DNA of 64,000 nt from Calditrichota bacterium (GTDB taxonomy: Bacteria > CLD3), in contig QQUF01000053.1 in assembly GCA_008501735.1 (NCBI GenBank), forward strand, positions 62,001 through 126,000, given 5' to 3'. Every line of letters begins with the position of its first letter. Position 1 is the stretch's first letter. Below the pieces are notes generated by a model. That model was not told the origin of the DNA, did not search any database, and worked only from the letters and a program-made list of their open reading frames with translations. This document shows positions 6,154 to 50,625 of this stretch, one piece after another. The position numbers were made by a program, and so were the translations under genes.

Positions 6154-6192
6154 TGGCGACAGCGTTTAAATGTTAACGTTGCTATGGCGACA
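6154..6192 (+). promoter_or_regulatory. Candidate activator-binding region upstream of FG-GAP gene
   Basis: Two direct copies of TGGCGACA (6154-6161 and 6185-6192) are 31 bp apart, about three helical turns. The second copy is preceded by TTAACGTTGCTA. Nearly the same element, TAACGTTACTATGGGGACA, lies upstream of the next FG-GAP gene at 8970-8988. Position about 50 bp upstream of a sigma54-like -24 box suits an enhancer site. This is inferred from sequence repetition only. Confidence 0.45.
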
Positions 6193-6242
6193 CGAAATTC
6201 TTTTTCTCGTATTCTGCACATTCTGTTAGCATTTTAAAAGTT

Positions 6243-6258
6243 TGGCACGAATTCTGAA
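6243..6258 (+). promoter_or_regulatory. Possible sigma54 promoter
   Basis: TGGCACG matches the sigma54 -24 consensus exactly. After the correct 4-base gap the -12 element is only partial (CTGAA against TTGCA). It lies 63 bp upstream of the ATG at 6306. Support comes from similar boxes before the genes at 9109 and 45490. Confidence 0.4.
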
Positions 6259-6305
6259 ATAAAGGTTAGTGAAGTAGAAAATTAACTAAAATTTCGGAGA
6301 AGAAA

Positions 6306-8855
6306 ATGTCAACGATTAAAAAACAAACATTATCACTAAGCCTTTTACTGGCTTTTTTTACAAGTTTCGTCAACGGAGCAACAACAACTTACGATTTAAG
6401 TGCTGGGGAACGAGACTTGAGAGTGCGTGGTGAGACTGAAAAAGATTTCTTAGGTTCACCAAGTGCTCAAGAAGCAAAAGGAATTTTTATTGCAGATGTC
6501 AATGGAGATGGTTATGGAGATTTAATTTGTGGAGCTCCTGATTATGGCTCAAATGGAAGGGTTTACATTGCTTTTGGAGCTACATCTTTTAGTGGAGCAA
6601 ATTACAATCTTTATGGTAGTGGGAAACCTGACGTTGTTATTGAGGGTTCAAGTTCAACAGATGAAGTTGGAAGTATGATAGCTTCTGGAGACATTAATGG
6701 AGATGGAATTGAAGACCTCATTCTCGGAACTTACAGAGCAGATAGAAATTCTTTAAACCAAACTGGTGGAGCTTTAGTTTTTTATGGAACAACAAGTTGG
6801 TCCTCGTCAATTGATTTATCTTCAACAACTGCTGACGTGGAGATTTACGGTTCTGAAAATCTTGAGCAAGTTGGAAAATCTGTTGATGTTGGGGACATTA
6901 ATGGAGATGGTTACGACGACATAGTTCTTGGGGCTCCAAGAACAAGTCCAGATCCTGACGGATTAGGAGCAAGAAATTATGCTGGAGCAGTTTATGCAAT
7001 TTATGGTGGAACTTCACTTGCTTCTACAATCAACCTTGCGACAACTTCCGCTGACATTGAAATTTATGGACACTACTCAGGAACTTCAACAAGTCGAATT
7101 GGTGATGTTGTTTGGGTTGGTGATGTAACAGGTGATTCTTACGATGACATTTTTTTCGGCTACTATCACGCAGACCATTCAACTTGGTCAAATCCTGGAC
7201 ACAGTGGAATGATTTGGGGAGTTTATGGCTCTGCTTCTCCAAGTTCAACTTATGACATAAAAAATTCTGACCACGATTTTGTAACTTATGGTTCAACAAC
7301 AGGAACTTATGGAGTTGGTTACAGAGGAGACATTGGAGATGTAAACAACGACGGTTACGAAGACCTTTTGATCTACTGTTCTGATTCACCGACGACAAGT
7401 ATTGATGTGATTTTCGGAAGTTCTTCCCCAACTTCAGGAGGAATTGAGGTAATTCGCGATGTAACAATTCAAGTTGGAACAAACACTGGAATGGGCGGAG
7501 TTGCTTGTGGAGATTTTAATGGCGACGGGGTTAAAGACATTTTTACAGGAAATCCATTCTCAAGCCCTGGAGGAAGATTTTGGGCTGGAGCAGGTTACAT
7601 TTTTTACGGAAGCACAAGCCTTAGTGGAACTTTAACACAAACTTCAGATTGTGATGTAGAAATTCAAGGCGACACTGACGGCGATTACTGCGGATTTCAA
7701 GTTGCAATGGGAGATGTCAATGGTGATGGAACTGATGACGCATTTTTAAGTGCTCCGAATGCTGACCCTCCTTCAAGAAGCAATGGCGGAGAAGCTTACT
7801 TAATTTTTGGTGAAACTCCATCAACTGCAGCTACAGTAAATATGTCAACCGGTTCGGGAAATACTCCGCCAATTAATTTTGGAACTTCAAATGTAACAAT
7901 TGATTTTAATGACACTTCTGCTGGGTCGGGAACAGTGAGTTGTGAAATTAATCCTTCTTCTCCAAGTGGTTCAGGTTTACCGACAAGCGTAATGCCTGTT
8001 TGGTGGGATATTTCAACAACGAAAACTGGAACAATAAACAGCACAAGTTTAACATTTCAGTACACTGATGCACAGCTTGGCTCTTTGGATGAAAGTAGTT
8101 TGATTGTTTACACTCGTGAAACTTCAAGTGATGCTTGGACGACTTTGAGTGGAACAATTAATACAAGTGCTAACACAATCACAGTTTCTACAGACCATTT
8201 TTCGGAATGGGGAATTGGTGAAGAAGACGAACCTTTAGCAGTTGAACTAAATTCTTTTGAAGCAAGGCAAATAAAAAATGGAATTGAGTTAAATTGGGAA
8301 ACTCAATCTGAAACTGAAAACAAAGGCTTTAGACTTTTACGAGCAGTAGGAAATCCCGAAAATTTTGTAAAAATTGCTGACTTTGAATCGCACTCTGAAC
8401 TCGTTGGGCAAGGGAACAAGGCTTCTCGCACAAATTATAGTTTTGTTAATTTGGAAGTTAATTTTGGTGAAATGTATTTCTACAAACTTGTTGACGTTGA
8501 TTTTGAAGGAACTGAAACTGAACACGAAGCTGTTGAAATTGAGTTTCTAATTAGTAGTGAAAATTCAGTTTCAAAACTCGAGTACCAACTTGCACAGAAC
8601 TTCCCAAACCCTTTTAACCCAAATACAAAAATAGGTTTTACAATTCAAAGAGATAATTTTGTAACTCTAAAAATTTACAACCTTAAAGGGCAGTTGATTA
8701 AAACTTTAGTCGAAACAGATTTGGCAAAAGGTTCTCACCAAATTTCTTGGAATGGAGCAGACGAGAATGGGAACTCTGTTGCAAGTGGAAACTACATTTA
8801 TGAAATCGTTTCTGGCACTTTTAGACAAGCAAAGAAAATGACTTATCTAAAATAA
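6306..8855 (+). CDS. Secreted FG-GAP repeat protein with T9SS sorting domain
   Basis: An 849-residue exported protein with a signal peptide (residues 1-25, ending VNGA). Seven or so FG-GAP/integrin-alpha-like repeats (about 35-500) each carry a DxNGDGxxD calcium-loop motif, for example DVNGDGYGDLICGAP, followed by GxxYxxxG. A beta-rich linker follows, with AVELNSFEARQ.....LNWET.SE..NKGFRLLRA, a region common just before T9SS domains. The C-terminal sorting domain (about 765-849) contains AQNFPNPFNPNTKI and ends KKMTYLK. Such proteins are exported through T9SS and anchored or released at the cell surface; the repeats suggest a calcium-stabilised beta-propeller binding protein. A good ribosome site (CGGAG) precedes the ATG. 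It is a single-gene unit ended by a terminator at 8882. Confidence 0.9.
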   Translation: MSTIKKQTLSLSLLLAFFTSFVNGATTTYDLSAGERDLRVRGETEKDFLGSPSAQEAKGIFIADVNGDGYGDLICGAPDYGSNGRVYIAFGATSFSGANYNLYGSGKPDVVIEGSSSTDEVGSMIASGDINGDGIEDLILGTYRADRNSLNQTGGALVFYGTTSWSSSIDLSSTTADVEIYGSENLEQVGKSVDVGDINGDGYDDIVLGAPRTSPDPDGLGARNYAGAVYAIYGGTSLASTINLATTSADIEIYGHYSGTSTSRIGDVVWVGDVTGDSYDDIFFGYYHADHSTWSNPGHSGMIWGVYGSASPSSTYDIKNSDHDFVTYGSTTGTYGVGYRGDIGDVNNDGYEDLLIYCSDSPTTSIDVIFGSSSPTSGGIEVIRDVTIQVGTNTGMGGVACGDFNGDGVKDIFTGNPFSSPGGRFWAGAGYIFYGSTSLSGTLTQTSDCDVEIQGDTDGDYCGFQVAMGDVNGDGTDDAFLSAPNADPPSRSNGGEAYLIFGETPSTAATVNMSTGSGNTPPINFGTSNVTIDFNDTSAGSGTVSCEINPSSPSGSGLPTSVMPVWWDISTTKTGTINSTSLTFQYTDAQLGSLDESSLIVYTRETSSDAWTTLSGTINTSANTITVSTDHFSEWGIGEEDEPLAVELNSFEARQIKNGIELNWETQSETENKGFRLLRAVGNPENFVKIADFESHSELVGQGNKASRTNYSFVNLEVNFGEMYFYKLVDVDFEGTETEHEAVEIEFLISSENSVSKLEYQLAQNFPNPFNPNTKIGFTIQRDNFVTLKIYNLKGQLIKTLVETDLAKGSHQISWNGADENGNSVASGNYIYEIVSGTFRQAKKMTYLK

Positions 8856-8881
8856 ATTCCTTTCTACTTCCCCATACGAAC

Positions 8882-8916
8882 AAAAGGCAAACCTTTAATT
8901 AGGTTTGCCTTTTTTA
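8882..8916 (+). terminator. Rho-independent terminator
   Basis: An AAAAGGCAAACCT stem with loop TTAATT and AGGTTTGCCTTTTTT forms a 13-bp hairpin followed by a T-run, 26 bp after the stop of the FG-GAP gene. Confidence 0.9.
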
Positions 8917-8968
8917 TTTACAAAATTTAATGACTTAGGACACAATTTTTTAGACAAAGGTTTGCGAA

Positions 8969-8988
8969 GTAACGTTACTATGGGGACA
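8969..8988 (+). promoter_or_regulatory. Candidate activator site, second copy
   Basis: GTAACGTTACTATGGGGACA contains the perfect 10-bp palindrome GTAACGTTAC. It matches the element at 6173-6192 at 17 of the 19 bases that follow the first G. It lies about 60 bp upstream of a sigma54-like -24 box and 120 bp before the ATG at 9109, the same arrangement as at the previous FG-GAP gene. Confidence 0.5.
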
Positions 8989-9048
8989 AAAAAATATTAA
9001 TAAATCTTTAAGTGGCTTTCTTTGAGTTTAAAAGAAGGTTTTTTCTTT

Positions 9049-9064
9049 TGGCACAGTTTGTGGA
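9049..9064 (+). promoter_or_regulatory. Possible sigma54 promoter
   Basis: TGGCACA fits the -24 box in all but its last base. The spaced -12 element is partial (GTGGA). It lies 45 bp upstream of the ATG at 9109. Both FG-GAP genes share this -24 box and the upstream element, so common control is likely even if the sigma factor is uncertain. Confidence 0.4.
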
Positions 9065-9108: not shown

Positions 9109-10644
9109 ATGTTAGTGAATTTAAGCAGAAGATTAATGATTTTGACTTTAGGTTTGACAGTAACTTACCAAGCTTCTCAAGCAGAGACAACAATTACACC
9201 TTCAGATAATTATGAAGACAATTACTTTGGTGAAGGGCTTGACATTGACGGAGATTTTATTTTGTCTGGAGCTTCGTTGGATTCTACAAATGGTGACAAT
9301 GCTGGAGCAGTTTACTCTTTTGAACGAATCGGAACAAACTGGGTTGAACAAGAGAAATTTGTTGGTTCTGATACAAATTCTGGCGATTACTTTGGTTGTT
9401 CAGTAAAAAAAGATGGAGACTTTGCAATTGTTGGTGCAAGTGGAAAAGATAACTCAACTGGAGCAGCTTATATTTTTATGAGGAACTCTACGGGGTCTTG
9501 GATTGAAGTTGAAAAAATGGAAGGTGAAAATAGTTTAGATGGTTTTGGCTGCGATGTTGCAATTTCTGGAAATTATGCGATTGTTGGTGCTTTTGGAGTT
9601 AATTCAACTTCCTCAAGTACCACGATGAATTGGAATGGAGCAGTTTACGTTTATGAAAAGAAAACACCTTTCTTTTGGAAGAAAATCGCAGTTTTAAAAC
9701 CAACGGCAACAGATGCGACTGCAAAATTTGGAGCAAGTGTTGACATTGACGGGAATAACATCGTTGTCGGAGCTTGTGGTGAATACTACCTTAAAGGGGC
9801 AGTTTATATTTATGAGATAAAAAATGACTCTGTTGATTTAGTAAATAAATTTTATGGTGATTTAAATAGTTCCTCTTCAATTTATTCACGTTTTGGCTCA
9901 GATGTTGAGATAGATGGCGACGTAGTTTTGGCTTCTTCAGCTTCTGAAGAGATTGTTGCAGTTTTTGAAAAAAAGACTAAAATAAAAAAAGTGATTGTAG
10001 GTGATTCAGAAATGCAATTCTTAGATGTTAACTGGGAAACTAAAACTATTTTAACTCCAAATAGTTCAGCTAATGACTTTGGAAAATCTATTGCAATTTC
10101 TGGTGATAATATTTTTATTGCCTCCAATAGTAATGGGCATTTTTTTAAGAAAGTTGGAACAAACTGGGTAGAACAACTTTTACCAATCAACGCGAATTTG
10201 CCTAACACTTATAGTAGTTTTGGGAGGAATGTAGCGATTGATGGAGACCACGCAATTAGTAATGTTTTAAATGTCTTTTTTTACCCAACTTACTCAGATT
10301 CAGAAATTAGAGTTTATCACAAAGGTGCTTACTTTTTTACAAAACCGACTAATGATGAAAACACTCCTAAAGTTTTTTCACTTTCGCAAAATTATCCGAA
10401 TCCTTTTAACCCTTCTACCAAAATTGATTACGAATTAGAAATTTCAAATTTAGAAAATTCTTCTATTACAATTTTTAATATTCTTGGTGAAAAGGTCAAA
10501 GAGTTTACTTTGAATAAAGAAAAAGGTTCTGTTGTTTGGGATGGAAAAGATTCTTTTGGAAATTTGGTTTCTAGTGGTAATTATTTTTACAGACTCACAA
10601 GTGGAGATTACAGTCACACGAAAAAAATGACTTTTTTAAAATAG
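9109..10644 (+). CDS. Secreted beta-propeller (FG-GAP-like) protein with T9SS domain
   Basis: A 511-residue protein with a signal peptide (about 1-26, ending SQAE). Six or seven repeats of about 55 residues share the pattern 'FG..V.IDGD...VGA.......GAVY.FE....W', which are FG-GAP-type blades giving a single seven-bladed propeller. The T9SS sorting domain occupies about 430-511 (SQNYPNPFNPSTKI ... KKMTFLK). Unlike the previous protein the blades mostly lack DxNGDG loops (they have DIDGD). The ATG is preceded by AGGAG. Transcription ends at the hairpin at 10665. Ligand unknown; the shared upstream elements suggest co-regulation with the gene at 6306. Confidence 0.88.
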   Translation: MLVNLSRRLMILTLGLTVTYQASQAETTITPSDNYEDNYFGEGLDIDGDFILSGASLDSTNGDNAGAVYSFERIGTNWVEQEKFVGSDTNSGDYFGCSVKKDGDFAIVGASGKDNSTGAAYIFMRNSTGSWIEVEKMEGENSLDGFGCDVAISGNYAIVGAFGVNSTSSSTTMNWNGAVYVYEKKTPFFWKKIAVLKPTATDATAKFGASVDIDGNNIVVGACGEYYLKGAVYIYEIKNDSVDLVNKFYGDLNSSSSIYSRFGSDVEIDGDVVLASSASEEIVAVFEKKTKIKKVIVGDSEMQFLDVNWETKTILTPNSSANDFGKSIAISGDNIFIASNSNGHFFKKVGTNWVEQLLPINANLPNTYSSFGRNVAIDGDHAISNVLNVFFYPTYSDSEIRVYHKGAYFFTKPTNDENTPKVFSLSQNYPNPFNPSTKIDYELEISNLENSSITIFNILGEKVKEFTLNKEKGSVVWDGKDSFGNLVSSGNYFYRLTSGDYSHTKKMTFLK

Positions 10645-15499: not shown

Positions 15500-15745
15500 T
15501 TGTTCTGTCCTTTTGTTTTGTTAGTGACAGCACAAAATTATTTCTACTAAGCCGTTTCTTTAGAAACAGTAACGTCGAAATTATTGTTTTGGAATTATTC
15601 TAAAATCGTTGTTTGAAGGATAAAAATGGAGTTCTACAAAAATTTTATTTAAATTTTTGAGCTAAAAAAATCCATTTTCAAAATGATAGGAAGAGGTTTT
15701 TATTAAGAAAAATCAAAGTTGCTAAAAATATTGCTTTAAAGAAAA

Positions 15746-17284
15746 TTAAGATTCTTTGTTTTTTCTTAAAGTTTCTAAAATAATAGTCCACAAATTCTCA
15801 TAAGGTATAATCTCCCAATTAAAAAAGCTGTTTGTTGATTTAGTACGAAAGCTACTTAATTTTTTTACATATTCTAGGCTGTGAATTTTCAATTGATTAT
15901 AGTCGAAATCGTATTTTTCAATCATTAATATCATTTTAATAAAACAATCGGTACGATAGAATTCATTTTTTTTGAGATACCTTTGGTTGTATTGTTTCAA
16001 ACCTTCCATTTTATCCAAAACTTTAGAGTAATCTCCTTCGATTAAGTAAAACAATATTCTTAAAATTATTATTGAAACATTAAGACCTTTTTTGTCTTTT
16101 GATGTCTCGGATAATTTATCAATGGCTCTGAAAACATTAAAATTATTTTTTAACTCAATTCCCTTTTGAATTTCTAATGGGTTTTTGGAGTTTAGAAGAG
16201 CAATGATTATATAACTTTTAAATAAAATGAAATACTCGGCCTCTTGTAAAAAACTAATTTTGAAAAGCTCGTGAGATTCTAATTCCATTAATATTTCGAA
16301 AGCTTTTATAAGGTCATTTGACTGAATAGATAACAAAAAATAGTGATTGAGGAAAGAAATGTAATTTGCTGTCTGTTTTGGTAAGATTTTTTTTATCTTT
16401 TCTGCAATTAATTTTCCCTTTTCAAAATCTTGTAAATAAACAAGGCAAACCAATTGTTCTGTATTTAATTCAGCCAAAAGTTGTGGAGAAATTTTTATTG
16501 TACTATTTAGTAAACGTTTCTCAGTTTGTTCATAAACCTTTAGTGCGTTTTTTATATCGCCTACAGCTTCATATGCTGAGCTTTTTATTCTAAAATAGTA
16601 ATTGTGTAACTCAATAGAATCATATTCTTTAAATTTTTCAATATTTTCTTCAATTATTTTTGAATATTCCAAAGCAATTTCGAATGAGTTTGGGTTCAAG
16701 ATTCTTGAATTGGTTACTTCATATATAATTTTATGATAAAATTCTTGTGCTTGTATTTCAGCGGCATAAACTTCATTGTAAAAATTAATTTCTTTAAAAG
16801 AATCATATAAGACTTTTTTCTTGTGTTGAAAAACATAAAAAGTACTCAAGTTTTTTAGACAGTAAAGTATTACATCGGTAATTTTATGTTTCTTAGCGAG
16901 AAGGTAGGTTTGTTTATATAATTCTCTACTTGCATTGCTTGAGCCAGTTTTTCCTAACATCTTTGCAACGAATAAATTTTTTTCACATTTATAAGTAGCC
17001 TTTAACCTATCAGAAGCATTTATAGAAATATCTAATTCCATAATGGAGTTAATCATTTGTTCTTTAACATTATTTTTCAACTCACGAAACTTCTTTCCGG
17101 GGATTTTCTCACCAAAAATATCTAATGATGCTTCTGAATCCGTTTTATACTTACCTTCTAAAATCCCTTCGTAAAGTTTCCAAATGTTTGATTTTGTATC
17201 TTTTTTATGTAGGAAATTATTTAAAGGTTTAAAATCTCTTTTTTTCAAAAGTCTGGCAATGTCTATTAATTTTTCCAATTTCAA
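15746..17284 (-). CDS. Helical-repeat (TPR-like) protein, left copy
   Basis: A 512-residue protein made almost entirely of helices. The segments around residues 230-260, 270-300 and 300-345 look like degenerate TPRs (for example GDIKNALKVYEQTEKRLLNS). There is no signal peptide, so it is probably cytoplasmic. No ATG lies near the N-terminus; the TTG at 17284 (MKLEKLIDIARLLKKRDF) is conserved with the right copy. The first 190 and last 140 residues are almost identical to the paralogue, while the middle is more diverged. The partner is a divergent secreted esterase, now deleted here. The family is unknown. A regulatory or scaffold role for its divergent partner is possible but unproven. Confidence 0.8.
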   Translation of the reverse strand: MKLEKLIDIARLLKKRDFKPLNNFLHKKDTKSNIWKLYEGILEGKYKTDSEASLDIFGEKIPGKKFRELKNNVKEQMINSIMELDISINASDRLKATYKCEKNLFVAKMLGKTGSSNASRELYKQTYLLAKKHKITDVILYCLKNLSTFYVFQHKKKVLYDSFKEINFYNEVYAAEIQAQEFYHKIIYEVTNSRILNPNSFEIALEYSKIIEENIEKFKEYDSIELHNYYFRIKSSAYEAVGDIKNALKVYEQTEKRLLNSTIKISPQLLAELNTEQLVCLVYLQDFEKGKLIAEKIKKILPKQTANYISFLNHYFLLSIQSNDLIKAFEILMELESHELFKISFLQEAEYFILFKSYIIIALLNSKNPLEIQKGIELKNNFNVFRAIDKLSETSKDKKGLNVSIIILRILFYLIEGDYSKVLDKMEGLKQYNQRYLKKNEFYRTDCFIKMILMIEKYDFDYNQLKIHSLEYVKKLSSFRTKSTNSFFNWEIIPYENLWTIILETLRKNKES

Positions 17285-17615
17285 GTTCCTAATTTTTAGC
17301 AGGTAAAGTTATAAAAATTGAGTAAGTCATAAAATTACAAAGCAATAAATCATATTTTTGATAAAATATTGTCTATAAGTGATTTAATTTCCCTTTTTTT
17401 GCTTAAAGACGAAAAAAAATTGTGAATTTTTTAGTGAGAAACCTTCTAAAAGTTAAGAAAAACGTAATTTTCTTTCAAGCCAAAACAATAAAATGAACAA
17501 TTCTGTTTCTAACAAACTAAACTTTCAAATATAAATTTTCCTCGAAATGTTTTATGCACTCAATTGTCGTGAAAGCAATTTGGGTGAAACTTATAATTAA
17601 TTTTCGGAGGTTAAA
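17285..17615. other. Divergent intergenic region, left copy
   Basis: An AT-rich 330-bp promoter region between the left helical-repeat gene and the truncated esterase start. It is nearly base-for-base the same as 19514-19838, apart from an 11-bp insertion (AGTTATAAAAA type) near 19520 in the right copy. It ends in the ribosome site TTTCGGAGG. No additional gene was seen. The high conservation suggests recent duplication or shared function. Confidence 0.7.
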
Positions 17616-17699
17616 ATGTTGTTTTTAAAGAAAACAGGATTTTTTATCAAGTTTATCAGGCTGGAGCATTATTTAAAAGGAATATTGAGAAAGAAATAG
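17616..17699 (+). pseudogene. Remnant of the esterase gene 5' end
   Basis: ATG at 17616 follows the same ribosome site as the intact gene at 19839 and encodes MLFLKKTGFF before diverging. Alignment with the intact copy can still be followed through CTGGAGCATT and GAGAAA-GAAA. The frame ends at a TAG at 17697-17699 after 27 codons, where the remaining roughly 1490 codons are missing. It still has promoter and start signals, so a short peptide might be made. Confidence 0.75.
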
Positions 17700-17956
17700 G
17701 CTTAAATATTTACCAAAACCAATTTCTTTGGTAAGGTAATAGACCTTAACTATAAGAGATTGGATTCAATTCCAATCTCTTATTTTCATTTATTGTATTT
17801 TACAATAATTTTTCTTTCTTAGGGTTGTGTCTCAATTGAAAGATAACAGATAGAAAAATAACCTTTACTTTTGTATCGAAAAAATGATATTTGAAGCTAT
17901 AGGAAGAGAGCTTTTCAAGAAAAATAAAAATTACCAAAAATATTACTTTAGAAAAA
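17700..17956. other. Intergenic stretch with esterase-type hairpin
   Basis: No gene. It contains a small hairpin (TACCAAA/TTTGGTA, about 17711-17733). A 13-bp stem (17752-17764 with 17771-17783, ATAAGAGATTGGA) corresponds to the hairpin behind the intact esterase at 24407. The remainder up to 17956 includes the start of homology to the 3' flank of the left helical-repeat gene. Confidence 0.65.
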
Positions 17957-19495
17957 TTAAGATTCTTCATTTTTTCTTAAAGTTTCTAAAATAATAGTCC
18001 ACAAATTCTCATAAGGTATAATCTCCCAATTAAATAAACTTTTTGTTGTTTTAATACGAAAGCTGCTTAATTTTTTAACATATTCTACACTGTGAATTTT
18101 CAATTGATTATAGTCGAAATCGTATTTCTCAAGCATCATTATCATTTTAATAAAACAATCGGTACGATAGAATTCATTTTTTTTGAGGTACCTTTGGTTG
18201 TATTGTTTCAAACCTTCCATTTTATCCAAAACTTTAGAGTAATCTCCTTCGATTAAGTAAAATAATATTCTTAAAATTATTATGGAAACATTAAGACCTT
18301 TTTTATCCTTTGAAGTTTCTAATAATTTATCTATGGCTTTAAAAACATTAAAATTATTTCTTAACTCATTTCCTTTTTTAACTTCAAATGGGTTTTTGGA
18401 GTTTAGAAGAGCAATGATTAAATAACTTTTAAATAAAATGAAATACTCGGTTTCTTGGATAAAACTAATTTTGAAAAGCTCGTGAGATTCTAACTCCTTT
18501 ATTATCTCTAAAGCATTTTTAAGTTCATTTGACTGAATTGATAACAAAAAATAGTGATTGAGGAAGGAAATGTAGTTTGCTGTCTGTTTCGGTAAGATTT
18601 GTTTAATCTTTTCAGCAATTAATTTTCCCTTTTCAAAATCTTGTAAATAAACAAGGCAAATTAATTGTCCAGCATTTAATTCAGCCAAAAGTTGTGGAGA
18701 AACTATTATTGAACTATTTAGTAAGTTTTTCTCAGTTTGTTCGTAAACTTTTAGTGCATTTTTTATATCACCTATTGCTTCAAATGCTGAAGATTTTATC
18801 CTAAAAAAACAAATTCGTAATTCTAAAGAGTCATATTCTTTAAATTTTTCAATATTTGCTTCAATTATTTTTGAATATTCCAAAACAATTTCAAATGATT
18901 TCGGATCTAAAGTTTTTGAATTGGTTACTTCATATATAATTTTATGATAAAATTCTTGTGCTTGTATTTCAGCGGCATAAACTTCTTTGTAAAAATTAAT
19001 TTCTTTAAAACTATCATATAAGACTTTTTTCTTGTGTCGAAAAACATAAAAAGTACTCAGGTTTTTTAGGCAACAAAGTATCACATCGGTAATTTTATGC
19101 TTCTTAGCGAGAAGGTAGGTTTGTTTATATAATTCTCTACTTGCATTGCTTGAGCCAGTTTTTCCTAACATCTTTGCAACGAATAAATTTTTTTCACATT
19201 TATAAGTAGCCTTTAACCTATCAGAAGCATTTATAGAAATATCTAATTCCATAATGGAGTTAATCATTTGTTCTTTAACATTATTTTTCAACTCACGAAA
19301 CTTCTTTCCGGGGATTTTCTCACCAAAAATATCTAATGATGCTTCTGAATCCGTTTTATACTTACCTTCTAAAATCCCTTCGTAAAGTTTCCAAATGTTT
19401 GATTTTGTATCTTTTTTATGTAGGAAATTATTTAAAGGTTTAAAATCTCTTTTTTTCAAAAGTCTGGCAATGTCTATTAATTTTTCCAATTTCAA
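17957..19495 (-). CDS. Helical-repeat (TPR-like) protein, right copy
   Basis: A paralogue of the gene at 15746 with the same length (512 residues) from the conserved TTG at 19495. A TTG 18 bases upstream is open here, but its equivalent is CTG in the left copy, so I prefer the shared start. Differences cluster between about residues 195 and 375. The N-terminal 190 residues differ at only a few positions (for example YCLKN/CCLKN, FQHKK/FRHKK). It is soluble and all-helical with TPR-like pairs. It is divergent from the intact T9SS esterase and shares its promoter region. Function unknown. Confidence 0.8.
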   Translation of the reverse strand: MKLEKLIDIARLLKKRDFKPLNNFLHKKDTKSNIWKLYEGILEGKYKTDSEASLDIFGEKIPGKKFRELKNNVKEQMINSIMELDISINASDRLKATYKCEKNLFVAKMLGKTGSSNASRELYKQTYLLAKKHKITDVILCCLKNLSTFYVFRHKKKVLYDSFKEINFYKEVYAAEIQAQEFYHKIIYEVTNSKTLDPKSFEIVLEYSKIIEANIEKFKEYDSLELRICFFRIKSSAFEAIGDIKNALKVYEQTEKNLLNSSIIVSPQLLAELNAGQLICLVYLQDFEKGKLIAEKIKQILPKQTANYISFLNHYFLLSIQSNELKNALEIIKELESHELFKISFIQETEYFILFKSYLIIALLNSKNPFEVKKGNELRNNFNVFKAIDKLLETSKDKKGLNVSIIILRILFYLIEGDYSKVLDKMEGLKQYNQRYLKKNEFYRTDCFIKMIMMLEKYDFDYNQLKIHSVEYVKKLSSFRIKTTKSLFNWEIIPYENLWTIILETLRKNEES

Positions 19496-19838
19496 GTTCC
19501 TAATTTTTAGCAAGTAAAGTTATAAAAAAAGTTATAAAAATTGAGTAAGTCATAAAATTACAAAGCAATAAATCATATCTTTGATAAAATATTGTCTATA
19601 AGTGATTTAATTTCCCTTTTTTTGCTTAAAGACGAAAAAAAATTGTGAATTTTTTAGTGAGAAACCTTCTAAAAGTTAAGAAAAACGTAATTTTGTTTCA
19701 AGCCAAAACAATAAAATGAACAATTCTGTTTCTAACAAACTAAACTTTCAAATATAAATTTTCCTTGAAATGTTTTAGGCACTCATTTGTCGTGAAAGCA
19801 ATTTGGGTGAAACTTATAATTAATTTTCGGAGGTTAAA
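19496..19838. other. Divergent intergenic region, right copy
   Basis: The promoter region between the right helical-repeat gene and the esterase, duplicated at 17285-17615. It is AT-rich with poly-A/T tracts (for example near 19620 and 19640) and ends in the ribosome site TTTCGGAGG. No gene or strong known operator was recognised. Confidence 0.65.
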
Positions 19839-22800
19839 ATGTTGTTTTTAAAGAAAACAGGATTTTTAATTTTAACGAGTTTTGCAATTTTAGCAAACTG
19901 GAGCATTGTTTTGGGAGGAACATGGAGAAAAGAAACAGATTGGAGTGGTAGCCAATCAAAGGGTTTTAAAGAAATTGGAAGCCCAAATTTTAATTGGGCA
20001 AAAAAACTATTTTCATTTTTTATCTTTTTAACTTTTTTCCTCACATGTTTTGAACATGGATTCGCTACACAGTGGCAGAAAACAGCTGACCCATTTCAAG
20101 TTCATTCTGTAGTTAAAAAGCCTAATGACACTACTGATGTCTATGTGAGACATTCTGATAGAATTGTTTTAAAGTATGAAGTTGAAAATATACTCGGACA
20201 AAAAGTATATGGTGCTGTTCAGGTAGGTGTAAAGTTTAAAATTAATGGTACCTACACTCCTCAAAATACCTGGGCAGATTATTCAAATCCTCAAAGTGGT
20301 TTACAAGAATATTCTGATTTTATTGATACTCCGCCAGAATGGAGCGTACCTGGTGAGACATATATATTAGCCCATTTGTGGCGTGTAGATTGGGGTGAAC
20401 CTCAATATGTAGCATATATAAGAGTTCATTTATTGCCTAATTCAAATACTCAAAATTCTTTAAACAATCCAATTTCTCAGACTGGCTCTCACTCATACTT
20501 TACGGACAATTCTGATCAGATATGGCCAGGTGATTTTGACAAAGGAAACTCAATATCTGTATGGCAGGGTGGAAATGAAATTGATTACCCTATTATTATT
20601 GTTGAAGGATTTGATGCTAAAAACAAAGTTTATTCACAAAGTTTTTATAATGATATTTCTTCTTTTATTCAAATTCTCCAAAATACTTCACCCGAAGCAG
20701 ATATTTTACTTTTTGACTATTCTGATGGTGGTCAGGATCTAGCAAAATTGGGCCAAGGCCTTGCCAGTGGAATTAGTTATATAAGTAATATTTATGGTTC
20801 TTCTCAAATCATTGGCATAAGTATGGGAGGAGTTGTTGCCAGATATGCTCTTGCTTACGCAGAACAAGAGGGGATTTTAATCAATGTATCCAATTTTGTC
20901 TCTGTAGATTCCCCACAAAAAGGAGCTGAACTTGATGATAATTTTCAAAATTGGTTATATAATTTAGACGACTCACCTGCTGATATCTCTAGTGAAATAG
21001 AATCATTACGTAGTATTGCAGCAAAGCAAATGCTTACTTACAATGCCTGGAATTTAAATGGAAGTTACCACACATCATTTTACAACAACTTAAATGGTTT
21101 GAATTCCACGGGGTGGTCACAAAATACAAAAAATATTGGAGTTTCTTTTAGTCCTGGTTATGGACAAAATCCGAACTCTGGACTCAAATGGCTTAGTATG
21201 GATAATCAAGGCATTCCAGGGATAAGTGATGAAGACCTATACATAAGTTCTTCAGAAAATATTTCAGATATGGGTTCTTTTTTGCCCAAAAGTTTCACTG
21301 ATGGAAAGAGTAAAGGTTTTATCTATAATTTAGTTAATGTAGAAATTGAAAGATACTCTGATCCTACTTTTATTACATTTGAGAGTGCAACTTCATTTAA
21401 CCCAAATCAACCTAATAACTCTGATTTTGATGTAGTAATAAATTCTTTGGTTCCAACCTTTCACGATTCCGTTCCTCCAGAAATAATTCCACCTTTATTG
21501 AGTGAAATGGGATTTACACCACCAAGTGTAAACTGGTCAGTAACACCAATCACTCCAAACTACACAATTTCTGGTAGTTGGATAAATTACTCTGGAACTT
21601 TCCAAGTACAATTTCAGGATTTATCAACACAACAAAATGGCACAATCACAAATTGGTTATGGGATTTTGGGGATAACTCAACAAGTACTCAACAAAATCC
21701 GATTAAAACTTTCACAACTTACGGACAGCATGACGTAAAGTTAACAGTAACAAATTCAGCTGGAGTTCAATCTACAAAATATTGGGGGACTTTATCTAGT
21801 ACAGGTCAAGACATATCTAGAATTAATATTTATCCTGGATTTCCTTCAATTACGGGAGATTTATTTGTTGATTCAGCTCCTGGATTTTGTCAACTTGAAT
21901 CTAAAAGTTGGAAAGCTACACAAAACATAAATGATTTAAATAATTATGGTACTATAAAGTGGAAAATTGAAAAAGGTAGTAAATCTTATTTTGTTGAAGG
22001 AAATATAAATAGCCTCGGTAAAAGTTATTTACCTACCAATCCTAGTTTTGGCTCATTTAGTTGGAATTCTCATATCGGAGGAGATTGTCAAGCATTTAAA
22101 TTATCTGCACAAAAAAAAGTTAATTGGGCAGTGAGTGTTTGGAAAGAATTTGCAAATGGAACTCCTATTGTAAAACTTAACTGTGATTGTAATTTAAATC
22201 CTGGACCAAACGACCCAGTTTGTCCTCATATAGTTTTGAATATTAATGGTCAAGAAATAGTTGAGAATAACATTCTTTATTTCTCAAATGAACAAAGGGA
22301 ATTTGGACCTATTACAGATAAATGTTTAATTCAGAATGATTTACCAATTGAAAATGGAAAATATGTTTTAAACATCAAAGAAATTGGTACCTCAATTAGT
22401 AATCTTGATTACTTTTCTTTAGAGACAATTGATGTTCCAACAGGAATAGAGGTCGGAGCTTTAGCTCAAGAAAATCAAGAATTGGTTTTTTATTATCCTG
22501 ATAGTTTAAACTCAGTTTTTTCTGCCGATGTTAATGGTACGCAAGATATTCGGTCAGAAATTACAAATGATGATTCTCAATTTTTCCTTTCTGATTCAGG
22601 AGATGTTTTGAGTTTCGTCGTGAATCCGGTAGCAAATGAAACTTGCAAAATCATTATTAAAACTCTGGAACTTGACCCAACAATTGAAGCTCAACCAAAA
22701 TATGTTTATGGATTTTCAGTAATCGGAGGTGGAATAGAAGAAAATATTGCTTCTATAGCTTACAGAAATAAAGATTACACTCACGTTCTTGATGTTAGTG

Positions 22801-39444: not shown

Positions 39445-39458
39445 CCTTGGGGAGGGTT
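39445..39458 (-). promoter_or_regulatory. Shared 5' leader motif of giant genes, copy 1
   Basis: On the minus strand this reads AACCCTCCCCAAGG, 74 bases before the ATG. The identical 14 bases occur before the other giant gene (45538-45551). The C-rich core stands out in AT-rich surroundings. It may be a protein-binding site, or an mRNA element able to pair with Shine-Dalgarno-like sequence. Confidence 0.55.
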
Positions 39459-45537: not shown

Positions 45538-45551
45538 CCTTGGGGAGGGTT
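45538..45551 (-). promoter_or_regulatory. Shared 5' leader motif of giant genes, copy 2
   Basis: AACCCTCCCCAAGG on the minus strand, 48 bases before the ATG at 45490. It is identical to the motif before the other giant gene, and lies downstream of the proposed sigma54 start site, hence in the transcribed leader. Confidence 0.55.
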
Positions 45552-45581: not shown

Positions 45582-45598
45582 AGACAAGATTTGTGCCA
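45582..45598 (-). promoter_or_regulatory. Likely sigma54 promoter of giant gene
   Basis: On the minus strand TGGCACA is followed by AATC and TTGTC. This fits the sigma54 consensus TGGCACG-N4-TTGCA with the correct spacing and one mismatch in each core. It is the best of the three such sites found in front of surface-protein genes in this window, and lies next to a sigma54-activator gene. Confidence 0.55.
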
Positions 45599-45795
45599 AA
45601 AGAAAGGAAGAAATATACTTAGAATAGCCCAAATAATAGAGTAATTTTTGAAATGATTGAAAGCTTTAAGTGTAGCGTTTTGGTGCACTTGAAGGGGCGT
45701 TTGAGTAATTGCCTTGTTTATCTAATTGTTTTGTAGGGGTTTATGGCAATTGTTTCAAGTCGGTACGTTGTCTCGATTTAGGACAGTTAATGTGC

Positions 45796-48700
45796 TTATC
45801 TTGAAGCTGGTAAGTTATGTTTTTCTAAAATTCTGTAAAGACGTGAACGACCGATATTTAAATTGCTTGCTGTTTTGGAAAGATTCCAGTTTGAATTTTC
45901 AAGAGCTTCAATAACTACTTTTTTTTCAGTTAGTTCAAGAATACTGTTTAAACTTCGACCTTCGATTGAGAAATCATTAGTTTGGTTTGTGGAAGGGCTT
46001 TCATTCTTTTGCTCAATCTCATTTTCATTAAATAAGTTTTTTAAATCCAAGTTTAATTTGCCTTGATGGTTTAGTACACCTTTTGCGATTGTGTTTTCAA
46101 GTTCTCGGACATTTCCGACCCATTGTGAAGATTTAAGAAATTCTATTGATTTTAAAGTAAAGCCTTTTATTTCCTTATTCATTTCTTTGCAGTATTTCTC
46201 TAAAAAATAATAGGATAAAGGGAGAATATCACTTACTCTTTCCCGTAAAGGTGGAATTTCGATTTTTAACACATTGAGCCTGTGGTAAAGGTCTTCCCTA
46301 AAAGTTCCTTTTGAAATTTCATCTTTTAAATTTCTATGAGTTGCAGTAATTATTCTCGTATTGATTGAGATTGGATTTTTTCCACCGACTCTCCAAATTT
46401 GTTTTTCTTCTATTGCACGAAGTATTTTGGCTTGGTTTTCAAGTGAAAGTTCTGCAATCTCATCTAAGAAAAGAGTTCCATTATCCGCTAACTCAAATTT
46501 ACCTTGTCGTTCAAAAGCACCTGTAAAAGAGCCTTTCTCGTGACCAAAAAGTTCACTTTCAACTAAACCTCTTGGCAAAGCGGCACAATTTATTGCAATA
46601 AATGGATTATTTTTATTTTCGCTAATGTAATGGATTGATTTTGCAACCAATTCTTTCCCTGTTCCTGTTTCGCCGTAAATAAAAACAGGTAATTTAACTT
46701 TTGAGGTATTTTCAATTTGTTTGTAAACCTTTTGCATTTCGACGCTGTTACCGACGAACATTCCAAGTCTTCTTATTTTAGACTCAAATTGAAATGTTTT
46801 ATTTTTTTCTTGTTGCCATAAAACAGAGGAAATTAATTTAGTGAGTGTCAAAACATTATTTAGGTTTTTAGTTTTGAAAACTCCTTTTTCAACTTGACAT
46901 CTGTCTAAGTAAATTGCACCGATTATTTCATTGTTAATTTTTAAAGGGACTGAAATTACAGACAGAAAAATTTTTCCATAAACACTTACGTTATGCTTAA
47001 ACTGAGTAGACTCAACGGCATTTTCAATTAATGTCGGCTTATTTTGCCTAATTGATTCCTGCAAAATTCCTCGGCTAAAGTCAAAATCTTCACCTTCTAA
47101 GCCCGGGGATAATGCTCGCATTTCAAAGTAGTTTGTATTCTCTTTGTAATAAATAATTTGACCTCTGTCAGCGTCACACTCACGAATTAAAAAATTAAGA
47201 ATTTCAGTGTAAATAATTTCCGGGTCCATCCACTTTGTTAGTGCTTCAACTAAGGACAAAGTTGTTTGAGAAATTGAAGAGTCTGTATTACTTGAATTCA
47301 AAAGCTCATCAATTTTTCTTTGGTAAGTAAATTTTGGTGAACTTTGATTTATTTTGAAAAAATACTCCAACGCTTTACGACGGTATTTTTCTCTATCAAT
47401 TTCTAAATGTGAAGGCTTTTCTGCAAAGTTGAAATATGTGTGGTAAATTTTAGCGTATTCAAAGTCATTTACAGCACTTTTTAAAAGAGATTCTAAATTT
47501 TTGAATGCTTCAATTTGATTTCCAATTGCAAATTCAATTTGAATGAGGAGCAAATCATTTTCAAAAATATCTTGCATTAATCCGTAACTGTTCCACTTTT
47601 TAGCTTCTAAAGCGTAAGATTGGGCTTTAAGTTCTTCACCCATTGCAAAGTAAGATTGTGCTAAGTTTATATTCGCACTATGAATGACTAAAAAGAATTC
47701 TATTTCTTTGGCTTTCTCTAAACCTTTGTTAAAGTAATAAATTGCATTTTTATAATCTTTGTTGATATAGTAACAAACTCCGAGATTCAAAAGAGTATTT
47801 GTGGCATTTAATCTCATTCCAAATCGATTGCTCAGTTTAAGATTTTCTAAACTAATTTGTATCGAGTTATCAATTTTACCGGTTTTGAGAAAAATAATTC
47901 CTAATACATCATTACAAGTTAATATCGTATCAATGATATTTTCTTTTTTAGCATTTTTCTTTCTTTTATTTAAAAAACTTAGTGCTTCCTTAACTTCTTC
48001 TTTTGTGTCTGCAAATTTGTAAATGTCCAACAAAGCCGATTCAATTAAGCTTTCATCTTTAAGTTCTTTTGCAATTTCCAGCCTTTTCTTTGTAACTAAT
48101 TTCGCTTTAGGTTGTTCGTACTTACTTAAATAGAAGTAAAAATAAATTTGATAAACATTTACTAAGTCTGTTTTCGAATTTTCTTGTTCAAATAGTTTTA
48201 TGGCTTTGTCAAAATTCTTTTTTGCTTCTTCAAACTTTCCTTGATTGTATTGAAGTTCTCCAATTCCTTGTGAAACTCGCCCAACTCTTAAGTCGTCATT
48301 AATTTCCAATGCTAATTTTAATGCTTTGTTTAAAGAATCATTTTGCTCTTTTAGTTTGGTTAGATTTTCTAGCAAAACATTTCTTTTAAGCAAGAAGTCA
48401 ATTTCTAATTCCTTATCTCCCGTCTTTTGAGCAAGTTCAATTACCTGAGCGTAGAAGTATTCTGCTTTTAAATATGAGAATTCTTTGTTGTTAAAATCTC
48501 CTGCTAAAGAACAATATTCAATTGCCTTCGTATAGTTTTTAGCCAAATAAAAATGTTTTGCAAGTTCATCAAAAATTTGTTCCAAATTCTCTGAGTTTTG
48601 TTTCTCAAGATAAAATCCTACTTTTTCATGAAATTCTTTTTTCTCAGAAAAGTTTACCAAAAGTGATTCGCAGATTGCATCGTATGTAAACTCAAATGAA

Positions 48701-50625
48701 CTTTGAACTTTATTTTTGATTAGCCCTTCAAATCGAGCTTCTTCGAGTAAATTTAAAACAGTGTTTTCTTCAATTTCAAGTAAGTCAATTAATTGTTGTG
48801 AACTAAACGTTTTACCAATAATTGAAGCAACTTGTAAGCATTTTAGAACTTCAGGTCTAAGAAGTTCTAATTGTTTAGTTAAAATGTGTTGAATTGAACT
48901 TGGAAGTTTGAGTTCTTCAATTGAACTTTCGTTTAAAATCCACTTACCATTTTCCAATTTTATTTTTTCGGTTCTTAATAAGTAACGAACGATTTCCGAA
49001 ATAAAAAGTGGGTTTCCACTGCAACGTTTCATTACTCCTTTTGCAAAATCTTCATTTATCGGCTCAGACTTACCAAGCATTGAAGTTAGAAGTGCCGAAA
49101 CTGAATTTAAGTCTAATGGCTTTAAGTGAATAGTTTCTAAATATTCTTCAACTTTTTCAAAATTTGTAAGGATTCGTTTAAATGGAAGTGAGTCTGAAAA
49201 TTGTGACCGAGAAGTTCCAACAAAGTAAATTGGAAGTTTATGAATGTTTTTGAAAAGGAAATTTAGCCAATTGCACGTTTTTTCGTCAGCCCATTGGAGG
49301 TCGTCAAAAAAAATAATTATTGGATTTTTATCAAAAACAATTTCTGACAGATTAGTAAAAAAAGTCTGTACAGTTTCAAAAAATCTAATCTCATCGTTTA
49401 CTTTTGCTAAAGTGAAAGGTTGTTGCTCAAGTAAACTCAGTAATTCTTCGTCTTGAGGCTCTGAACATAAGTCAAGTAGAATTTTACCATTGTTACCAAG
49501 TATTTCAGCTTTTTTATGATTCTCCAAACCTTTTAACGAGGTTAAACATTGTTTGATAATCTCTGAAAGAGGTTTGTAAATCCCACTTCCATTGACACAA
49601 AAAGTTTCAAAAATATTAACTTTAAACAAATTAAGCCCAACACAAAATTCATTCCAAAGTTTTGTTTTACCGACTCCCGAATCACCCAAAATTAAAACAG
49701 CTTTACCACGACTGCTAGTTACTTGGTGAAAATTATTTTCTAAAGAATAAAGAAATTCCTCTCTTCCAACAAAAGTAGGAGGTAAAAGTCGTTTCTGACC
49801 AGAATTGATTTTTGAAATCTCACGTTCACTCAAAAAGACTTTTAGTTCGTCAATCAAATTTCTTGCTGATTGAAATCTATCTTTTGGGTTTTTAGCTAAA
49901 AGTTTTTCGATAATATTTTTTAGCGAATTAGGGATTTCAGATGGAAGTTCTTTAGGAAAAACCAAAGGTGATTTTATATGAGCCAAAATGATTTCGGTGT
50001 TTGTTTTTCCGTCGAATGGTAGTTTACCTGTAATCAATTCGTAAAGAATCACTCCAAGTGAATAAAGGTCGCTTCTTCCGTCAATTTTTTTTGAATCAAC
50101 GCATTGTTCTGGTGAAGCATATTTTATTGTTCCAATAAAAATACCTTTTGGAGTATTAATTAAGGCACTTGTTTTTAGAAAGTCAAAATCGGTAATTTTG
50201 ACTTCTTCTTCGGAAGTGATTAAAATATTCTCGGGTTTTAAGTCTCTGTGAACAAGGTTGAGTGAGTGAAGTTCGTCTAAGCCATTACAAACTTGAATTA
50301 TTGCTTGAATAGCTTTGGAAAGCGAGAATTCTGTTTCTTTGTTTCGTAGGTTCTTAAGAAATGAAATGGGTTTCCCGTCCACAAATTCCATAGCGAAACC
50401 ATAACTTTGAGGAGTCTCAACCCATTCAATCATTTTAACGCAGTTTGGGTGTGAAATCTTTGAAGCAGAAATAAAATTTATTTTAATTCTGCGTTTTTCT
50501 TCTTCAGAATTAAGATTCGGGTGAATGATTTTTAAGGCGGCAATCTTTTTTGTCTTTTTATTTCTTACTTTCGAGACTGTGCCGAATGAGCCTGAAGAGA
50601 TTTCTTCAAGAAGTTCCCAATCCAT
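45796..50625 (-). CDS. Giant regulator: Ser/Thr kinase, ATPase, TPR, GAF, sigma54 AAA+, Fis HTH
   Basis: A 1609-residue cytoplasmic protein combining two signalling architectures. Residues 5-265 are a Hanks-type kinase: glycine loop SSGSFGTV, AALK lysine, HRDLKPEN (about 125), GTIKYASPEQ. The DFG motif reads DFD. Residues about 285-600 are a STAND/AAA-type ATPase (Walker A GDSGVGKTK about 312, Walker B IIIFFDDLQW). TPRs fill about 680-1100. A GAF domain lies at about 1115-1265. The sigma54-activator AAA+ domain (about 1290-1530) has GETGTGKE and GSFTGA in place of GAFTGA. A Fis-type HTH ends the protein (ALENSNWNLSKTASNLNIGRSRLYRIL). It probably integrates a signal by phosphorylation or ligand binding and activates RNA polymerase with RpoN. 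It immediately precedes the giant adhesin gene on the same strand. Confidence 0.92.
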   Translation of the reverse strand: MDWELLEEISSGSFGTVSKVRNKKTKKIAALKIIHPNLNSEEEKRRIKINFISASKISHPNCVKMIEWVETPQSYGFAMEFVDGKPISFLKNLRNKETEFSLSKAIQAIIQVCNGLDELHSLNLVHRDLKPENILITSEEEVKITDFDFLKTSALINTPKGIFIGTIKYASPEQCVDSKKIDGRSDLYSLGVILYELITGKLPFDGKTNTEIILAHIKSPLVFPKELPSEIPNSLKNIIEKLLAKNPKDRFQSARNLIDELKVFLSEREISKINSGQKRLLPPTFVGREEFLYSLENNFHQVTSSRGKAVLILGDSGVGKTKLWNEFCVGLNLFKVNIFETFCVNGSGIYKPLSEIIKQCLTSLKGLENHKKAEILGNNGKILLDLCSEPQDEELLSLLEQQPFTLAKVNDEIRFFETVQTFFTNLSEIVFDKNPIIIFFDDLQWADEKTCNWLNFLFKNIHKLPIYFVGTSRSQFSDSLPFKRILTNFEKVEEYLETIHLKPLDLNSVSALLTSMLGKSEPINEDFAKGVMKRCSGNPLFISEIVRYLLRTEKIKLENGKWILNESSIEELKLPSSIQHILTKQLELLRPEVLKCLQVASIIGKTFSSQQLIDLLEIEENTVLNLLEEARFEGLIKNKVQSSFEFTYDAICESLLVNFSEKKEFHEKVGFYLEKQNSENLEQIFDELAKHFYLAKNYTKAIEYCSLAGDFNNKEFSYLKAEYFYAQVIELAQKTGDKELEIDFLLKRNVLLENLTKLKEQNDSLNKALKLALEINDDLRVGRVSQGIGELQYNQGKFEEAKKNFDKAIKLFEQENSKTDLVNVYQIYFYFYLSKYEQPKAKLVTKKRLEIAKELKDESLIESALLDIYKFADTKEEVKEALSFLNKRKKNAKKENIIDTILTCNDVLGIIFLKTGKIDNSIQISLENLKLSNRFGMRLNATNTLLNLGVCYYINKDYKNAIYYFNKGLEKAKEIEFFLVIHSANINLAQSYFAMGEELKAQSYALEAKKWNSYGLMQDIFENDLLLIQIEFAIGNQIEAFKNLESLLKSAVNDFEYAKIYHTYFNFAEKPSHLEIDREKYRRKALEYFFKINQSSPKFTYQRKIDELLNSSNTDSSISQTTLSLVEALTKWMDPEIIYTEILNFLIRECDADRGQIIYYKENTNYFEMRALSPGLEGEDFDFSRGILQESIRQNKPTLIENAVESTQFKHNVSVYGKIFLSVISVPLKINNEIIGAIYLDRCQVEKGVFKTKNLNNVLTLTKLISSVLWQQEKNKTFQFESKIRRLGMFVGNSVEMQKVYKQIENTSKVKLPVFIYGETGTGKELVAKSIHYISENKNNPFIAINCAALPRGLVESELFGHEKGSFTGAFERQGKFELADNGTLFLDEIAELSLENQAKILRAIEEKQIWRVGGKNPISINTRIITATHRNLKDEISKGTFREDLYHRLNVLKIEIPPLRERVSDILPLSYYFLEKYCKEMNKEIKGFTLKSIEFLKSSQWVGNVRELENTIAKGVLNHQGKLNLDLKNLFNENEIEQKNESPSTNQTNDFSIEGRSLNSILELTEKKVVIEALENSNWNLSKTASNLNIGRSRLYRILEKHNLPASR

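Follow-up and report, generated by a model that had tools for sequence, protein, structure and literature searches.

A paired palindromic element and predicted sigma54 promoters upstream of exported beta-propeller genes in a Calditrichota bacterium

Two neighbouring genes for exported proteins in a Calditrichota bacterium are preceded by the same 19-bp element, which raises the question of whether this element belongs to sigma54-type control regions and, if so, which regulator might act through it. Within the window (the whole stretch of DNA analysed, 64,000 nucleotides long), gene A (6306..8855, + strand) encodes an exported FG-GAP beta-propeller protein of 849 aa (FG-GAP, 1.2e-36), and gene B (9109..10644, + strand) encodes an exported FG-GAP protein of 511 aa (FG-GAP_2, 6.6e-45). 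The ATGs of both genes, at 6306 and 9109, have plausible ribosome-binding sites and lie downstream of the promoter-like boxes, as stated in the initial annotation, which had been made from the sequence alone. The same annotation described the pair as FG-GAP genes of the type IX secretion system (T9SS), and both proteins carry, besides their FG-GAP matches, the T9SS C-terminal signal TIGR04183 (28.9 bits for gene A and 39.7 bits for gene B, against an NCBIfam cut-off of 23), a C-terminal sorting domain that marks them as predicted T9SS substrates. The reading favoured here, with a probability of roughly 0.8, is that sigma54 promoters with a paired-palindrome enhancer, bound by a kinase-activator encoded on contig C1, drive a set of exported beta-propeller T9SS genes. 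The elements, their spacing, the gene set, rpoN, the activator domains and the conservation in one other genus were read from sequence, and the genome statistics are based on pattern searches together with a number of sampled stretches.

The shared element and its palindromic core

The 19-mer TAACGTTRCTATGGSGACA occurs without mismatch at 6174-6192 and 8970-8988 of the window, in agreement with the claim that it precedes both genes, and it is rare in shuffled sequence and in the genome alike. In shuffled windows, 0.01 matches are expected even at three mismatches, and the rest of the 4.14 Mb genome contains a single further match, at three mismatches, and none with fewer. An origin as a duplication leftover was ruled out because the upstream regions of genes A and B share the element only (it alone forms their best local alignment), the flanks being unrelated, and because the two proteins align only within the C-terminal sorting domain. 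The broader explanation, under which the 19-mer would match by chance or be a duplication remnant, a mobile repeat or an RNA element, could draw on the fact that the full 19-mer has just two copies, yet it is extremely improbable given the shuffle expectation, the unrelated flanks, the absence of any match in an Rfam search for an RNA element at this site, and the retention of the palindrome across genera in a rearranged setting. This cross-genus conservation already contradicts it.

At its core the element contains a palindrome of 14 bp, GTTRC-N4-GYAAC. Five exact copies of this core pattern, GTTRCTATGGNRACA, occur in the genome, and a search permitting one mismatch gives eight matches versus three for the reversed-pattern control. 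Three of the five copies are the perfect palindrome GTTACTATGGTAAC, and this exact palindrome is found three times in the bacterium's own genome and once in the sister genome, with none for the control in either. In distant genomes, other palindrome matches fall mostly inside unrelated genes in a chance-like manner, the control giving at least as many. Two of the five core copies lie in the window, and contigs C50, C52 and C1 carry one each. The C50 copy is upstream of an operon of two genes, one for an exported protein of 106 aa and one for a T9SS protein of the sortilin type, the C52 copy is upstream of a gene for another sortilin-type T9SS protein, and the C1 copy precedes by 18 bp the start codon of the gene for a 1261-aa activator, from which the gene for a third sortilin-type exported protein diverges. 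The distribution of the core, obtained through the kind of genome-wide search proposed in the initial annotation, is thus not random, since the genes that it precedes encode exported proteins and a sigma54 activator.

At each of the six loci considered, of which five are in this genome and the sixth is that of the sister genus, the palindrome is accompanied by a weaker second copy 14-20 bp away, centre to centre, with a combined p of about 4e-6. Upstream of gene A, the weaker distal copy GTTTAAATGTTAAC (6164..6177, + strand), which agrees with GTTRC-N4-GYAAC at 7/10 arm positions, abuts the predicted core enhancer palindrome GTTGCTATGGCGAC (6178..6191, + strand), whose centre is 60.5 bp upstream of the -24 G. 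Upstream of gene B, the weaker distal copy GTTTGCGAAGTAAC (8960..8973, + strand; 8/10 arm positions) likewise abuts the predicted core palindrome GTTACTATGGGGAC (8974..8987, + strand), which is centred 70.5 bp before the -24 G. The copy at 6164..6177 is weak alone and is backed by the pairing at all six loci, and the imperfect right arm of both core copies in the window counts against the enhancer reading. Because the weaker and core copies abut in the window, the element as first delimited begins with TAAC, the end of the upstream copy.

The initial annotation also noted, in the first region, a second and helically phased copy of TGGCGACA. This sequence is indeed present at 6154..6161 (+ strand), 31 bp upstream of the copy at 6185-6192, and may represent an extra half-site, although an uncertain one. 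Two copies of it also occur in 17 of 100 window shuffles, so the half-site alone carries little weight, and a helically phased half-site is not needed. The proposal that the element acts as an enhancer-type site is supported, with the adjacent palindrome pair taking the place of the phased half-site as the unit. Upstream activating sequences are palindromic, usually repeated, and located roughly 80-200 bp upstream; here, the palindromes are paired and the core centre lies about 85-108 bp upstream of the predicted starts. Four of the five core copies are followed 60-84 bp on by a TTGGCAC facing the gene start, with distances from palindrome centre to -24 G of about 60, 70, 72 and 84 bp, whereas a box lies within range of only 4.1% of intergenic points drawn at random from the sampled, TTGGCAC-enriched loci.

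Sigma54 promoters in the window and across the genome

A canonical sigma54 promoter combines a TGGCAC -24 element, with GG at -25/-24, and a TTGC -12 element, with GC at -13/-12. TGGCAC-type boxes had been noted 50-60 bp past the shared element, and TTGGCAC starts at 6242 (50 bp) and at 9048 (60 bp). The predicted sigma54 promoters are TTGGCACGAATTCTGAA for gene A (6242..6258, + strand) and TTGGCACAGTTTGTGGA for gene B (9048..9064, + strand), with transcription starts near 6269 and 9075, respectively, as judged from the -24 positions. Their -12 parts, TTCTGAA (gene A) and TTGTGGA (gene B), both have T and G at -14/-13 at the right spacing and lack C at -12, and the absence of this canonical feature counts against a sigma54 reading. 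The imperfection noted earlier in the -12 elements is ordinary in this genome, where C at -12 is found in only 4/35 sites and its absence is the local norm.

The pattern TTGGCAC-N6-TG has 43 sites in the genome versus 13 for the reversed control, an excess of about threefold, and 35 of the 43 lie upstream of a gene in sampled DNA that is about 92% coding. Among the columns left free by the pattern, T is found at -15 in 28/35 sites and -11/-10 are mostly A, and the unselected -12 columns read TTGNAA. The genes downstream encode mainly exported proteins. Sigma54-like boxes also precede groES (L084:6701) and a putative small heat-shock gene (L048:1501), both genes being named from sequence by eye. 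TTGGCAC sites are further enriched near activator genes, with 10 within 3 kb of one versus about 2.5 expected. The genome has one rpoN (C55:144321; E 8.2e-56), encoding a 475-aa product with a normal RpoN box, ARRTVNKYRE. In the sister genome TTGGCAC-N6-TG is not in excess, with 14 sites versus 17 for the control.

If the TTGGCAC boxes were not sigma54 promoters, the genes might be transcribed with a housekeeping sigma factor and the element might serve as a conventional operator, which would accommodate the missing C at -12. Such an explanation is nevertheless very unlikely in view of the genome-wide count of TTGGCAC-N6-TG, threefold above control and concentrated at gene starts, the conservation of -12 columns that the pattern had left free, the presence of rpoN together with many GAFTGA activators, and the occurrence of such a box at groES, as at groES of a flavobacterium (PMC9723704). 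The arrangement originally proposed, an enhancer site plus a sigma54 promoter, is supported by the gene-start excess, by rpoN, and by the association of palindrome and box at the activator gene of the sister genus.

Several further features of the window are recorded here in their own right. Another predicted sigma54 promoter, TTGGCACAAATCTTGTC (45583..45599, - strand), stands without this enhancer element and faces the gene for an exported 1934-aa protein (39686-45490). The sequence AACCCTCCCCAAGG occurs on the - strand at 39445-39458 and 45538-45551, upstream of both giant exported-protein genes (starts at 39371 and 45490), its second copy lying downstream of the sigma54-like box, and is possibly a shared leader element. 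In addition, the stretches at about 15686-17644 and 17899-19867 are direct repeats of 2 kb with 93% identity, and each encodes a protein of 512-518 aa; a Pfam search with the protein of the first copy (about 15686-17644) found no known family.

A candidate kinase-activator and its conservation

The activator gene preceded by the palindrome on contig C1 (C1:61421-65206) encodes a protein in which a Ser/Thr kinase domain, TPR repeats, a GAF domain, an AAA+ domain and a Fis-type HTH follow one another in that order. It contains Walker A (GESGTGKE, 982), GAFTGA (1029), Walker B (VIFLDE, 1049) and an HTH_8 domain (1217-1256), the features that together identify it as a predicted bacterial enhancer-binding protein. 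Its kinase domain (Pkinase, 1.3e-48) retains intact VALK, HGDLK, DFG and APE motifs, from which Ser/Thr kinase activity is predicted. The window itself encodes a kinase-AAA16-TPR-GAF-sigma54 activator (45796..50625, - strand), but its recognition helix differs from that of the proposed regulator, of which it is a paralog, not an ortholog.

Conservation was assessed in one genome of the same family, G001, which represents the sister genus (including contig JADZEA010000198.1, 'MAG: bacterium isolate SJ803'). Its sole exact palindrome lies just upstream of the activator ortholog, which is 63% identical. On the other side of the palindrome, TTGGCACGAAATTTTATG faces an operon that encodes a CheY-like protein followed by a sortilin protein with 57.5% identity to the C52 target; its -24 G is about 72 bp away from the centre of the palindrome. 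In this genome the activator gene is interrupted by a contig break, its start lying on the contig with the palindrome and residues 117-1261 on another, and the contig bearing the ortholog of gene A ends inside that gene, its promoter falling beyond the sequence end. Palindrome, activator and target thus remain together despite a move of the target gene. The recognition helices of the two orthologs, VNRSTLYKKMEIL and MNRSTLYKRMEIL, are near-identical and unlike those of the other activators compared. Seven genomes of the same class have neither the palindrome nor the ortholog, the best activator match being 31-34% identical. In the genome under study, no -24 box could be recognised upstream of the exported-protein gene that diverges from the C1 activator gene. 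As a separate observation, the palindrome at the activator gene is immediately preceded by GGCACTATCTTAAC (L073:14371-14404), and a similar ACTATCTTARC accompanies both the C52 palindrome and that of the sister genus; these sequences would be fitting for a conserved second site.

A different assignment would retain the sigma54 promoters but give the palindrome to another regulator, either an activator or a repressor, which would control the kinase-activator gene as well, while the kinase-activator itself used other sites. The position of the palindrome 18 bp before the activator start codon is of the repressor type, and some 37 activators in the genome provide other candidates. This assignment is nonetheless unlikely, as the palindrome accompanies the activator ortholog in both genomes and is absent from the seven genomes of the same class, and the spacing from palindrome to -24 is enhancer-like.

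Under the preferred reading of the C1 kinase-activator as regulator, we infer its binding, activation, autoregulation and signal as follows. Each region would comprise a sigma54 promoter, TTGGCAC-N6-TG, and an upstream activating sequence made up of the 14-bp palindrome and a weaker adjacent copy, with the core centred about 85-95 bp before the predicted start. The palindrome would be bound by the Fis-type HTH of the C1 activator, a kinase-TPR-GAF-AAA+ protein of 1261 aa. On receiving a signal through its kinase, TPR or GAF domains, this activator would assemble at the two sites of each pair, reach the sigma54 polymerase by looping and open the promoters of its target genes through its GAFTGA AAA+ motor. 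The predicted targets form a small exported beta-propeller T9SS set of two FG-GAP and two sortilin-type proteins, and the palindrome 18 bp before the activator's own start codon may permit self-regulation.

Strong sigma54-activator domains number about 37 in the genome. Some 20 of these activators lie in open frames of 1185-1795 aa and are fusion-like by frame length, and a kinase domain was present in 7/7 activators scanned with Pfam. Such an expansion of Ser/Thr kinase-sigma54 activator fusions is unusual, and a search of the open-licence literature for kinase-fused sigma54 activators yielded nothing useful. Contig C38 carries another kinase-activator gene next to five FG-GAP T9SS genes, all of which have a TTGGCAC promoter. 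These five promoters share a different palindrome, GTACT-N6-(A/G)GTAC (GTACTGAAATCAGTAC/GTACTGATTTCAGTAC), located 168-196 bp before TTGGCAC. Four of the promoters have two copies of it, 28 bp apart, and the fifth has a single copy (L074: 435-450, 4178-4221, 7290-7333, 9776-9819 and 12275-12318). This recurrence is partly inherited, because the pattern was derived from these paralogous promoters; the informative part of the case is the absence of the palindrome elsewhere in the genome, where the stricter pattern GTACT-N6-AGTAC is found on C38 alone (control 0). With two cases seen, GTTRC-N4-GYAAC (C1 activator and window) and GTACT-N6-AGTAC (C38 cluster), it is conceivable, at somewhat less than even odds, that a private-line code operates in which each of some 20 kinase-activator fusions has its own palindromic enhancer and a small sigma54-driven set of T9SS beta-propeller genes. 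The case further suggests that each of the many paralogous kinase-activators may be a switch of its own for a separate surface-protein set. The locus bears on how T9SS surface proteins are chosen for export, as the cis element, sigma factor, candidate regulator and targets can all be named from sequence, and the candidate regulator combines, within a single polypeptide, a kinase of eukaryote-like type with a sigma54 motor.

Comparison with known sigma54 systems

The predicted system resembles those of the NtrC/PspF/NorR type in its -24 box, its tandem palindromic upstream sites and its GAFTGA AAA+ activator with a Fis-type HTH. The pspF gene is divergent from pspA, and the activator gene of the sister genus is similarly divergent from its target. 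In contrast to those systems, the activator here has its own Ser/Thr kinase, TPR and GAF domains, the -12 element is without the usual C, and the targets are T9SS beta-propeller proteins. A survey of sigma54 as a controller of the bacterial exterior deals with envelope polymers, flagella and their precursors (PMC3162934). The mainly exported nature of the targets predicted here accords with that role, whereas the kinases in the covered parts of the survey are histidine kinases, and a term search of its text returned no mention of Bacteroidetes (PMC3162934).

A parallel in the targets concerned is offered by Flavobacterium psychrophilum, in which sigma54 promoters are found at groES/groEL and at genes for exported and gliding proteins, including remFG-sprCDBF (PMC9723704). 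The adhesin SprB of this organism leaves via T9SS, and the sigma54 promoter of its operon was shown by promoter mutagenesis (PMC9723704). Sigma54 boxes at groES and at exported-protein genes are common to this regulon and to the genome analysed here (PMC9723704). The two differ in that only three activators are predicted in F. psychrophilum and the passages covered assign no enhancer site (PMC9723704), whereas the present genome has about 37 activators and cluster-specific palindromes.
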